Below, piece by piece: positions 3,022 to 38,443 of a DNA stretch of 64,000 nt. The DNA comes from a bacterium (GTDB lineage Bacteria; Oederibacteriota; JAAXVQ01; JAUVAV01). The stretch lies in NCBI GenBank assembly GCA_021108215.1, contig JAIORK010000018.1, positions 62,001-126,000 on the forward strand, read 5' to 3'. Each line of letters starts with the position of its first letter. The stretch's first letter is position 1. Under the pieces are notes generated by a model. The model saw only the letters and a program-made list of their open reading frames with translations, ran no database searches and was not told where the DNA came from. A program made the translations under genes and the position numbers.

Positions 3022-5457
3022 CTATGCTTCTTCTTTAATCGCAATTCTCGCCACAGCACTGACGTAATCATTTTGAGACATTTTGATGACACGCACACCC
3101 TGGGCATTGCGCCCCACCATGTTAATATGCTTTAACGGGGTGCGAATCAATGTTCCGTTGGAGGCAATCATCATCAATTCATCCTGATCGGAAACCGACA
3201 TGATGGTCACCACCTGTCCATTTCGTTCTGTGGTCTTGATGTTGATCATACCCTGCCCGCCGCGACTCTGCGCGCGATAAGCATTTTGTTTTGTTCTTTT
3301 TCCAAAACCCTTGGTGGTCACCGTCAACAAACTTTGTTTTTCTGTTACGATCTGCATTCCCACCAAAATGTCCTTGGGTTTAAGCGAGATGCCGCGGACA
3401 CCTTTACCCGTTCGTCCGATTTCACGAATCTTCGAAACATTAAACCGGATGGCTTTACCCAGACGGGTTGCCAGCACCACATCATTTTCATCTGATGTTT
3501 CTAAAACCTGAATAAGATTATCGCCTTCCGTGAGGGTTAGTGCAATGATTCCGCCGGCGCGTGGATTGGCGTACGCCGTAAGCCGGGTTTTTTTAATCAA
3601 GCCTTTTTCCGTCGCCATAACCAAAAAGCGATCTTCGCTGAACTCTTTTACCGGGATCATGGCCTCCACGGATTCTCCCTGTTGAAGGCGGACCAAATTA
3701 ATAATCGCTTTGCCCCGCGAAGCACGCGCTGCTTCGGGAATTTCATAAACCTTAAGCCAATAGACCCTGCCTTGGTTCGTGAAAAATAAAATGTAATGGT
3801 GTGTGGATGCCACAAAAAGGTGCTCCACAAAATCGCCGTCTTTAGAACCCATGCCCATGACACCGCGTCCACCCCGCCGTTGGGCGCGGTAGGTTGATAC
3901 CGGCAGTCGTTTAATATAGCCCTTGTGGGATATGGTGATAACCATATCCTCTTCTTCAATCAGGTCCTCCACCGAGAAATCCTGGAGTGCGCCAATTATT
4001 TCTGTGCGCCGATCATCACCATATTTTTTCTTAATTTCTGCAAGCTCTTCTACGACAATCCCGAGAACCCTTTTAATACTGGCAAGAATCGAGCGCAACC
4101 GTTCGATGGTTTTGAGGAGCTCGAGATATTCATCCTCTATTTTTTTGCTTTCCAGACTGGTCAGCTGATGAAGCCGCATATCTAAAATCGCCTGTGCCTG
4201 AACATCCGACAATTTAAAATTATGAATCAACGCTTCTTTGGCAATCGGAACCGTCGCGGAAGCGCGGATAATTTTAATTACCTTATCCAAAAATTTAAGC
4301 GCAATTTTCAGACCTTCCAAAATATGAGCGCGGCGCTCTGCTTTATCAAGTTCAAACCGGGTACGCCGAAAAATAACTTCTTTGCGGTGCTCAATAAAAT
4401 GCTCTAATATTTCTTTTAAATTTAAATGCTGCGGACGACGATTCACCAGCGCAACGGTATTGACGCCAAAACTTGTACGTAATGAAGTATATTTAAAAAG
4501 ATTGTTCAATACGATCTGGGAATTATCATTTCGCCCGACTTCAATAACAATCCGAATGCCGTCGCGGTCAGACTCATCACGCAGATCTGTAATACCATCT
4601 ATTTTCTTACTTCGCACCAGGTTAGCAATATTTTCAATTAACATGGATTTATTTACCTGGTAAGGCAGTTCGGTGACAATTAAACGCTCCTTGCCGTTTT
4701 TCAACTGTTCAACCTTGACCTTGGCTTGCATTTTGATTGATCCCCGGCCGGTTTTAAAAGCACTTATAATTCCGTCACGTCCCAGGATATAGGCACCGGT
4801 CGGAAAATCCGGACCAAAAATATGTTTTTTAACCAACTGCTCAATTTTTATTTCCGGATCTTCAATGACGGCAATAATCGCATCAATCACTTCTCTCAAA
4901 TTGTGCGGCGGAATATTTGTGGCCATGCCAACAGCGATGCCGGTGGTGCCATTGACGAGCAATGCGGGGATTTTTACCGGCAGCAAACCGGGTTCGGTCA
5001 ACGAGTCATCATAGTTGGGTACAAAAGGAACCGTATCTTTATCAATATCCGCCAACATTTCCCCGGCAATTGATGCCAAGCGGGCTTCCGTATACCGCAT
5101 GGCAGCTGCCGGATCTCCATCAACCGATCCAAAATTACCCTGCCCATCCACCAGCATATAACGCATATTAAAATTCTGTGCCATGCGTACCAAAGATTCA
5201 TAAATTGCAGAATCGCCATGCGGATGGTAATTACCCATCACTTCACCAACGATCTTGGCGGATTTACGATAGGGCTTGCTGTGATGCAGTCCCATGTCAT
5301 ACATCCCGTACAAAATACGGCGATGAACAGGTTTAAGCCCATCACGGACATCCGGGAGCGCACGACCGACAATAACGCTCATGGAATAATCGAGATAAGA
5401 ATTTTTCATTTCTTCTTCGATCAATATTGGATACTGCTTTTGACCTTCGTTCTCCAT
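3022..5457 (-). CDS. gyrA: DNA gyrase subunit A
   Basis: An 811-residue breakage-reunion subunit of DNA gyrase, which with GyrB introduces negative supercoils. The N-terminal part shows [18 protein letters not shown], the quinolone-region motif [17 protein letters not shown] (Ser and Glu at the positions equivalent to E. coli Ser83 and Asp87) and the catalytic tyrosine in MRYTEARL at about residue 122. The GyrA box QRRGGRG is present in the C-terminal beta-pinwheel, which marks gyrase rather than topoisomerase IV. The length is slightly short because there is no long acidic tail. Shine-Dalgarno GGAG precedes the ATG. It is 36 bp downstream of dnaN in the same leftward run. gyrB lies on the other side of the origin, so the usual gyrB-gyrA pair is separated. 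Confidence 0.97.
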
Positions 5458-27568: not shown

Positions 27569-28063
27569 ATGAAACAAGATGAAGCCTACATGGCATTGGC
27601 GTTGCGGGAAGCTCGCAAAGCTTTTAAGCAGGATGAGGTTCCGGTGGGTGCAGTGATTGTCCATCAAGGGAAAATTATCGGGCGGGGATATAACCGGGTA
27701 GAGCAGAAACAGGATGTGTCTTATCATGCAGAAATGATTGCCTTGCGGCAGGCGGCACGCCGTTTGAAAAGCTGGCGTTTGGAACAATGTCGGCTTTTTG
27801 TGACTTTGGAACCTTGCGCGATGTGTGCCGGTGCTATTGTCTGGTCTCGAATAGAGCAGGTGGTGTATGCGGCTTCTGATTCAAAAGCCGGTGCATGTGG
27901 ATCTGTTGTAAGGGTTTTGGGAAACAAAAAATTAAATCATAGTCCAAAAGTGGTTTCCGGGATTTTAGCATCGGAAGCTGCGTTGTTGCTAAAAAGATTT
28001 TTTAAAAATTTGCGACAAAAGACAAAGAAAAAAATTAAACGGAGAGATGTCCGAGTGGTTTAA
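27569..28063 (+). CDS. tadA: tRNA-specific adenosine deaminase
   Basis: A 164-residue zinc deaminase making inosine at position 34 of tRNA-Arg(ACG). The zinc and catalytic residues are in SYHAEMIAL (His, Glu) and TLEPCAMCAGAIVWSRI (PCxxC). ASDSKAGACGS is also typical of TadA. ATG 27569 has GGGAG 6 nt upstream; a TTG start five codons earlier is unlikely. The last eight codons (RRDVRVV and stop) lie inside a tRNA-Ser-like sequence, so the end of the protein is encoded by that tRNA relic. It is preceded by its substrate tRNA. Confidence 0.95.
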   Translation: MKQDEAYMALALREARKAFKQDEVPVGAVIVHQGKIIGRGYNRVEQKQDVSYHAEMIALRQAARRLKSWRLEQCRLFVTLEPCAMCAGAIVWSRIEQVVYAASDSKAGACGSVVRVLGNKKLNHSPKVVSGILASEAALLLKRFFKNLRQKTKKKIKRRDVRVV

Positions 28064-28163
28064 GGAGCACGCCTGGAAACCCGGCATGCGCCGGGCAAGG
28101 CTGATAAGAAAACGCGTCTCCAGGGTTCGCCCCGCATTCGCAGGGCGCCCGGCGCATGCCGGG
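28041..28163 (+). pseudogene. Broken tRNA-Ser(GGA) with inserted GC-rich repeats
   Basis: The first 39 bp (28041-28079) are identical to the start of the intact tRNA-Ser(GGA) at 28496-28534, through the anticodon loop. Then 31 foreign bp replace the 3' half of the anticodon arm and part of the variable arm. A further 19 bp (28111-28129) match the tRNA again, after which the T stem and acceptor are lost. Two 16-bp GC-rich words, at 28080-28095 and 28148-28163, are exact reverse complements of each other and each can form a hairpin. No mature tRNA could form. Confidence 0.85.
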
Positions 28164-28190
28164 AGAATCCTAAATAGGTGATACAGAAGA

Positions 28191-28457
28191 ATGATGTACG
28201 TAGTTTATATATTGCAGAGTAAAAAAGACAAAAATTTTTATATTGGAATGACAGGAAATATTGAGCGTAGAATAAAAGAACATGAAGAAGGAAAAGTTGA
28301 GTCAACAAGATATCGCAAACCATTGAAGCTGCTTGCGTATGAAGTGTATATGACCAAACAAGAGGCGATGAGGCGAGAAAAGTATTTAAAAAGTAGTGAT
28401 GGAAAAAAAGATAAAAAAAAACGAATTAAGGAAAGTTTAATAGAATTAGAAAGATGA
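28191..28457 (+). CDS. Small GIY-YIG nuclease-domain protein
   Basis: An 88-residue protein that is almost only a GIY-YIG domain: YVVYILQS and FYIGMTGNIERRIKEHEEG form the two motif strands and the catalytic Arg helix, and REKYLKS belongs to the C-terminal helix. A basic tail follows. Such stand-alone domains are common in bacteria; some relatives are DNA-repair or homing-type nucleases, most are uncharacterised. The Shine-Dalgarno is weak, and two ATG codons in a row (28191 and 28194) could start. It lies between the broken and intact copies of tRNA-Ser(GGA). Confidence 0.85.
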   Translation: MMYVVYILQSKKDKNFYIGMTGNIERRIKEHEEGKVESTRYRKPLKLLAYEVYMTKQEAMRREKYLKSSDGKKDKKKRIKESLIELER

Positions 28458-28495
28458 AGGTAAAAGCAATATAACAAATTTTTCAGTAATGTTTT

Positions 28496-28585
28496 GGAGA
28501 GATGTCCGAGTGGTTTAAGGAGCACGCCTGGAAAGCGTGTGGGCGTTAACGCGTCTCCAGGGTTCGAATCCCTGTCTCTCCGCCA
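28496..28585 (+). tRNA. tRNA-Ser (anticodon GGA)
   Basis: Acceptor GGAGAGA pairs with TCTCTCC. The anticodon arm CACGC-CTGGAAA-GCGTG gives GGA, reading UCC/UCU. A long variable arm, GGTTCGAATCC, G73 and encoded CCA are present. Its first 39 bp are repeated 455 bp upstream in the broken copy. Confidence 0.95.
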
Positions 28586-38364: not shown

Positions 38365-38443
38365 TTATCGTGCTAGTGCGAACACGATGGACAGCCTGCC
38401 CGGCGAATGCCGGGTGCCGGGTAAACCCGTGGATTTTTATCGC
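38365..38443 (+). repeat. GC-rich dispersed repeat, copy 3 (short form)
   Basis: This copy has the outer parts of the family (TTTATCGTG ... GCGAACACGATGG ... GCCTGCCCGGCG at the left, GCGAATGCCGGGTGCCGGG at 38403-38421, and an ATTTTTATCG end), but lacks the middle segment of the 51-bp core. Its right end supplies the stop codon and last base triplet of the convergent DUF1667 gene. Confidence 0.78.

Follow-up and report, generated by a model that had tools for sequence, protein, structure and literature searches.

SegB of phages T4 and T6 is a free-standing GIY-YIG homing endonuclease of the phage tRNA region that causes duplication of tRNA segments (PMC13096335, PMC2988022). In vitro it breaks DNA inside tRNA genes, with the motif RAWTSGAAC, and its authors remark on the poor cleavage of donor alleles by free-standing GIY-YIG enzymes (PMC13096335). 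RAWTSGAAC is the complement of GTTCSAWTY, which in our own reading would represent the tRNA T-loop. Small standalone GIY-YIG proteins (UPF0213 and prokaryotic Slx1-like proteins) are also known from a 2006 survey of the superfamily, in whose consulted passages an association with tRNA genes or tRNA remnants is not mentioned (PMC1564403).

In this study, a stretch of 64,000 nucleotides of a bacterial genome (the window) was analyzed, which contains a GIY-YIG gene with the same minimal fold as these standalone proteins. Similar to SegB, this gene lies outside introns and beside tRNA genes. Unlike SegB, a phage gene located between whole tRNA genes, it is cellular and smaller, it is flanked by two copies of a single tRNA, one broken by hairpins and the other intact, and its cleavage activity is predicted. 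SegB of T6 is its nearest tested precedent. REP/RAYT systems comprise short palindromes with conserved features, some of them in inverted pairs, that are scattered in a genome. The window genome likewise harbors scattered short palindromes, although the enzyme linked to them here is of the GIY-YIG type and palindromes lie inside tRNA loops. Some mitochondrial endonuclease genes, such as that at Allomyces atp6, carry the end of the target gene and leave a displaced piece behind. The window gene similarly appears with a piece of its target gene while a displaced piece stays, whereas elements of the Allomyces type target mitochondrial protein genes rather than bacterial tRNA genes. Within the open-access literature searched, no description of cellular GIY-YIG units on disrupted tRNA genes was found, and the locus looks like a member of a class of minimal selfish elements, not described as yet, that break tRNA genes and leave a working copy beside them.

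Organization of the tRNA-Ser(GGA) locus

The element sits within the tRNA-Ser(GGA) locus of the window genome, and all of its parts share one strand (forward). The upstream anchor is tadA, encoding tRNA adenosine deaminase (27569-28063), as identified by Pfam and by synteny with relatives. It is followed by the 5′ part of a broken tRNA-Ser copy (28041-28079), the GIY-YIG gene (28191-28457), and, directly after the latter, an intact tRNA-Ser(GGA) (28496-28585), which is the only copy called by ARAGORN. Consistent with the initial annotation, which described a direct repeat with a broken upstream and an intact downstream copy, positions 28041-28079 and 28496-28534 are identical over 39/39 bp at a spacing of 455 bp; the chance expectation of such an exact repeat within the 3.3-kb locus is E ~1e-18. 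The tadA frame extends into the broken copy (28041-28063), where a TAA within that copy serves as its stop codon.

The same annotation took the upstream copy to end at the anticodon loop, which does not hold because its variable/T-arm half persists. A palindrome, CCCGGCATGCGCCGGGCAAG (28080-28099), a member of a genome-wide family, is inserted in the anticodon loop of the broken copy, and a few degenerate bases separate it from the resumption of tRNA sequence at 28111. The surviving variable/T-arm part (28111-28129) reaches as far as TTCG of the T-loop and constitutes a second exact match between the two copies, being identical to 28548-28566. Two T-loop hairpins follow: hairpin 1 (CCCCGC-ATTC-GCAGGGC, 28130-28146), whose position and loop motif are the same at loci L182, L228, and L229, and hairpin 2 (GCCCGGC-GCAT-GCCGGG, 28147-28163), whose loop is oppositely oriented. 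The AATCC at 28166-28170 corresponds in sequence to the start of the 3′ side of the T-stem. The broken copy is thus a tRNA gene that carries hairpin insertions in two of its loops and has decayed past the second one. In the intact tRNA, the position equivalent to the T-loop break of relatives lies between 28566 and 28567.

The gene between the two copies (88 aa) was confirmed as a GIY-YIG nuclease by Pfam (PF01541, E 2.4e-17). Residues Y6, Y17, G19, R27, and E63 are invariant in the window protein and the 13 relatives aligned with it, and its AlphaFold2 model is confident (mean pLDDT 92). The best fold matches of the model are UPF0213 and SLX1, with 1zg2 and 1ywl as the best solved structures. 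SLX1 enzymes cut branched DNA; therefore, recognition of a loop or cruciform structure by the window nuclease is possible. The protein contains no separate DNA-binding domain, which counts against the explanation favored below. A second, distant GIY-YIG gene of the window genome (G000:C19:10671-10898; 39% identity) has no tRNA gene within its locus. Two candidate identities of the unit were rejected: an Rfam scan for a group I intron at a relaxed threshold returned only tRNAs and chance matches, and no tyrosine or serine recombinase of an integrase island accompanies the GIY-YIG gene, which stands alone between the tRNA copies.

Association of the nuclease family with tRNA genes

We compiled 185 unique loci of nuclease relatives. 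The genomes covered were 192 around the window genome, four belonging to a single genus, and 380 sampled from the phylum that includes the closest relative (a Moraniibacteriota genome). A tRNA gene was identified within 300 bp of the nuclease at 97 of these 185 small GIY-YIG loci, and each of the 97 has one on the nuclease's strand. At 47 of the 185 loci, a partial copy of that same tRNA adjoins the nuclease. Because the sample was picked by similarity to the window protein, these proportions do not represent all small GIY-YIG genes; the tie to tRNA genes is tighter among the closer relatives (50/70) than among the more distant ones (38/89). The 88 relatives without a tRNA within 300 bp count against the favored explanation. 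The density of same-strand tRNAs is 0.99/kb within 300 bp versus 0.03/kb at 700-1500 bp of the same loci (~30-fold), and nearby tRNAs on the same and the opposite strand number 108:3 (p 1.8e-28). Partial copies accompany 51 of 115 nuclease-adjacent tRNAs versus 3 of 51 tRNAs in control genomes for which no nuclease match was listed (p 2e-7). In a second control, taken from tadA loci within the phylum of the window genome, 8 of 69 tRNAs had relics, one of them at a nuclease locus. That partial copies occur also without a nuclease counts against the favored explanation.

The tRNAs next to the nuclease are of many types and occur in very different bacteria, and the unit measures ~350-500 bp in many unrelated genomes. 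Two gene orders were observed, broken-nuclease-intact, as in the window, and intact-nuclease-broken (e.g., L102, L139, and L141). A search of a phage collection for nuclease relatives gave one weak match only. In a genome of the window's phylum (L079 in G021, 728-1332), an intact tRNA-Ser(GGA) precedes two broken copies with a GIY-YIG gene between them, and a short hairpin replaces the anticodon arm in both broken copies. Elsewhere, the first 30 bp of tRNA-Ala(CGC) are duplicated upstream of the intact gene (L070, 1227-1256; L078, 1455-1484); no nuclease is found nearby, and these duplicates are perhaps old relics.

A single-protein search of GTDB contigs with the window nuclease retrieved five loci, with a Candidatus Moraniibacteriota protein (L182, 62% identity) as the best match. 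The nearest relatives (56-64% identity), which belong to the phylum of this genome, are mostly located at tRNA-Ser and share the same hairpin pair. At L182, a broken tRNA-Ser(GCT) (positions 1-71), the nuclease, and the intact tRNA follow one another, with the hairpin pair at the T-loop position seen in the window. At ~3535-3920 of the same locus, a small ORF that contains an internal repeat separates the intact tRNA-Ser from an additional 3′ remnant of this tRNA. A tree of 97 tRNA-linked nucleases, based on 80 columns and with many unresolved forks, places the window protein in a supported group with five others (SH-aLRT 96), all of which come from the sample of the Moraniibacteriota phylum; five of the six are at tRNA-Ser genes (four anticodons) and one at tRNA-Asp. 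The tRNA type is clustered on the tree (58 changes versus 71.1 when shuffled; none of 200 shuffles as low). The natural reading of these sequences is that the nuclease spread between hosts while retaining its tRNA preference.

Empty sites with a single tRNA, which the initial annotation had suggested looking for, were found both after tadA and in one genus. Five relatives of the window genome at the family or order level, the only levels at which the window's own empty-site comparison was made, possess one intact tRNA-Ser(GGA) after tadA on the same strand, and no nuclease is present there. This tRNA starts 17-125 bp past TadA residue 152 in the relatives; the corresponding distances in the window are 17 bp for the broken copy and 472 bp for the intact copy. 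The broken copy therefore occupies the ancestral position, and the intact copy has been displaced or added. In the other case, genomes G193 and G192 have the unit at tRNA-Gln(CTG), where G173 and G194 of the same genus have an uninterrupted tRNA-Gln. Upstream of the tRNA, the flanks share 86-87% identity; uninterrupted homology breaks off at tRNA-Gln position 54 (GGTTC|GAATCCC), inside the T-loop, so that the alignment places the apparent insertion exactly in this loop. About 7 kb away from its intact site, G173 contains a lone tRNA-Gln remnant with the T-loop insert of the sister units and no nuclease (L346, 1501-1591; G173:C5:129946-130036), which consists of CGGGGTTC, ~75 nt of the same insert, and GAATCCC.

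With a GIY-YIG domain whose catalytic residues are kept, no surrounding intron or intein, and such empty sites, the unit shows the sequence-level hallmarks of a free-standing homing endonuclease gene of the Seg type. The family-wide association and the empty sites indicate that the unit is very probably a tRNA-gene-associated mobile GIY-YIG unit, and the earlier proposal of a minimal mobile unit made of a GIY-YIG gene and a tRNA fragment is strongly supported in this respect.

Break points, hairpins, and palindromes

The other half of that proposal, that the target is the anticodon loop of tRNA-Ser, was rejected. The hairpin at that position copies a genome-wide palindrome, and the break common to the closest relatives is at the T-loop; across the family, tRNA loops in general appear to be the target, the T-loop most often. 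Hairpin CCCGGCATGCGCCGGGC, which ends the 39-bp repeat, has 53 matches (up to one mismatch) in the 3.56-Mb window genome (G000) versus none for a reversed-pattern control; because it belongs to a genome-wide family, the apparent anticodon-loop break is a repeat inserted there. The REP-like family CCCGGC-ATNC-GCCGGGCAAG of this genome has copies in the window at 28080-28096, 28147-28163, and 38399-38414, and several of its copies are nested in loops of other copies. Five Y1-transposase genes are present in the same genome, and no such palindrome was observed near the one inspected (L329). Membership of the unit in a REP/RAYT system was rejected because the linked gene encodes a GIY-YIG protein rather than a Y1 (HUH) transposase.

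Most broken copies contain a strong hairpin, often a pair, within a tRNA loop or in place of the anticodon arm. Clean insertions were identified in the T-loop (L182, L228, L229, L234, L241, and L270), the anticodon loop (L232, L290, and L291), and the D-loop (L227, L251, and L265). Forty-three of 70 break points lie in or at a loop versus 40% expected (p 2.6e-4, an approximate value that treats the points as independent), and the T-loop leads with 18 of the 70. That the break points are spread over several loops rather than one site counts against the favored explanation. With intact tRNAs masked, a count of single strong hairpins gave 1.29/kb up to 200 bp from the nuclease versus 0.25/kb beyond 600 bp, a fivefold difference. 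Strict searches for hairpin pairs gave few matches, enriched near the nuclease; a lax search was noisy, and a count of the loop motif gave no clear separation of nuclease carriers. In the clade of the window nuclease and its neighbors, the loop of hairpin 1 is C-ATNC-G and that of hairpin 2 its reverse complement GNAT, with differing stems.

Possible mechanism and alternative explanations

On balance, the locus is likely to be a minimal, free-standing GIY-YIG element of the homing type that invades tRNA genes, mainly at the T-loop, and leaves a working tRNA; that cleavage of the T-loop drives the unit is somewhat less firmly favored. We infer cleavage, mobility, and self-immunity of the element as follows. 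The nuclease would act on tRNA genes that lack the element and cleave them within or close to a loop, mostly the T-loop (TTC^GA). A copy that contains the element would then serve as the repair template, with the conserved halves of the tRNA providing the homology. In this way, the hairpins and the nuclease gene would be introduced along with sufficient tRNA sequence for one functional gene. The hairpins would abolish the cut site in the broken copy, and the intact copy would restore tRNA function. The nuclease is probably expressed from the tRNA promoter, which fits the strict same-strand rule. The main gap for self-immunity, which counts against this explanation, is that the intact copy retains the presumed target site; poor cutting of donor alleles, as stated for free-standing GIY-YIG enzymes, may by analogy apply to the window nuclease.

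Three other explanations were weighed against this homing-type element. A tandem duplication of the tRNA, after which the first copy decayed and gathered palindromes and a GIY-YIG gene landed there by chance, would leave a direct repeat as seen; tRNA relics without a nuclease do exist, and one of the hairpins is a member of a genome-wide repeat family. This scenario, already named as the rival in the initial annotation, is nevertheless unlikely because it leaves unexplained why this class of gene is repeatedly found next to incomplete copies of many different tRNAs, with a tRNA on its own strand at every tRNA-linked locus, why the T-loop hairpin pair is common to the window and to relatives of another phylum, and why a clean T-loop insertion separates sister genomes. 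A decayed tRNA-integrated island or group I intron, with the nuclease as its sole remainder, would agree with the common targeting of tRNA genes by integrases and with the GIY-YIG enzymes harbored by group I introns. It is considered highly improbable given that no integrase or intron is found in or near the unit, that the window repeat is the 5′ part of the tRNA instead of the usual 3′ end, and that the units span only a few hundred base pairs across many unrelated genomes.

A REP-like system deserves separate mention, in which the nuclease would mobilize hairpins into hairpin loops, including those of tRNA genes, with the copy at the tRNA locus as the autonomous one and the genomic palindromes as its non-autonomous offspring, in parallel with the RAYT transposases that drive REPs. 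The C-ATNC-G loop common to T-loop hairpin 1 and the genome-wide palindrome, the nesting of palindromes in the loops of one another, the enrichment of hairpins around the nuclease, and the relic at L346 with the same insert but without a nuclease are consistent with this reading. It is nonetheless judged improbable, since the Y1-transposase genes (RAYT family) of the window genome could themselves drive the palindromes, and the genome of the closest relative has no Y1-transposase gene and few palindromes of this type.

If the homing-type reading is true, a large set of genes annotated only as "GIY-YIG nuclease family" would become recognizable as a class of selfish elements whose defined target is hairpin loops in tRNA genes; this class would account for many bacterial tRNA relics and show how a nuclease without an obvious targeting domain settles in many tRNA genes. 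It would also provide a natural parallel to synthetic cleave-and-rescue gene drives. Given the SegB precedent, the hypothesis can be tested using a single protein and a panel of tRNA genes as substrates.

The parallel can tentatively be carried further. At L229 and L230, remnants of both ends of an original tRNA-Ser (acceptor GGAGAGG/CCTCTCC) lie to the outside of the nuclease and of an entire tRNA-Ser whose acceptor stem is different but self-consistent; the acceptor stem at L228 differs too. As far as sequence can tell, the layout at L229 and L230 is the trace expected of an element that brings its own tRNA. In the window, the overlapping parts are identical; therefore, the intact copy there may be part resident and part element-borne. 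It is conceivable, though doubtful, that the unit is a widespread natural cleave-and-rescue element whose ~85-residue nuclease disrupts an essential tRNA gene in its T-loop or in some other hairpin loop, whose hairpin pair seals the broken copy, and whose substitute tRNA, in some lineages with a different acceptor stem, makes the cell dependent on it, with the enzyme possibly seeding hairpins elsewhere in the genome. At L231, L115, and L110, tandem hairpin-bearing broken tRNAs are located beside an intact one, as if the broken copy were a repeating unit.
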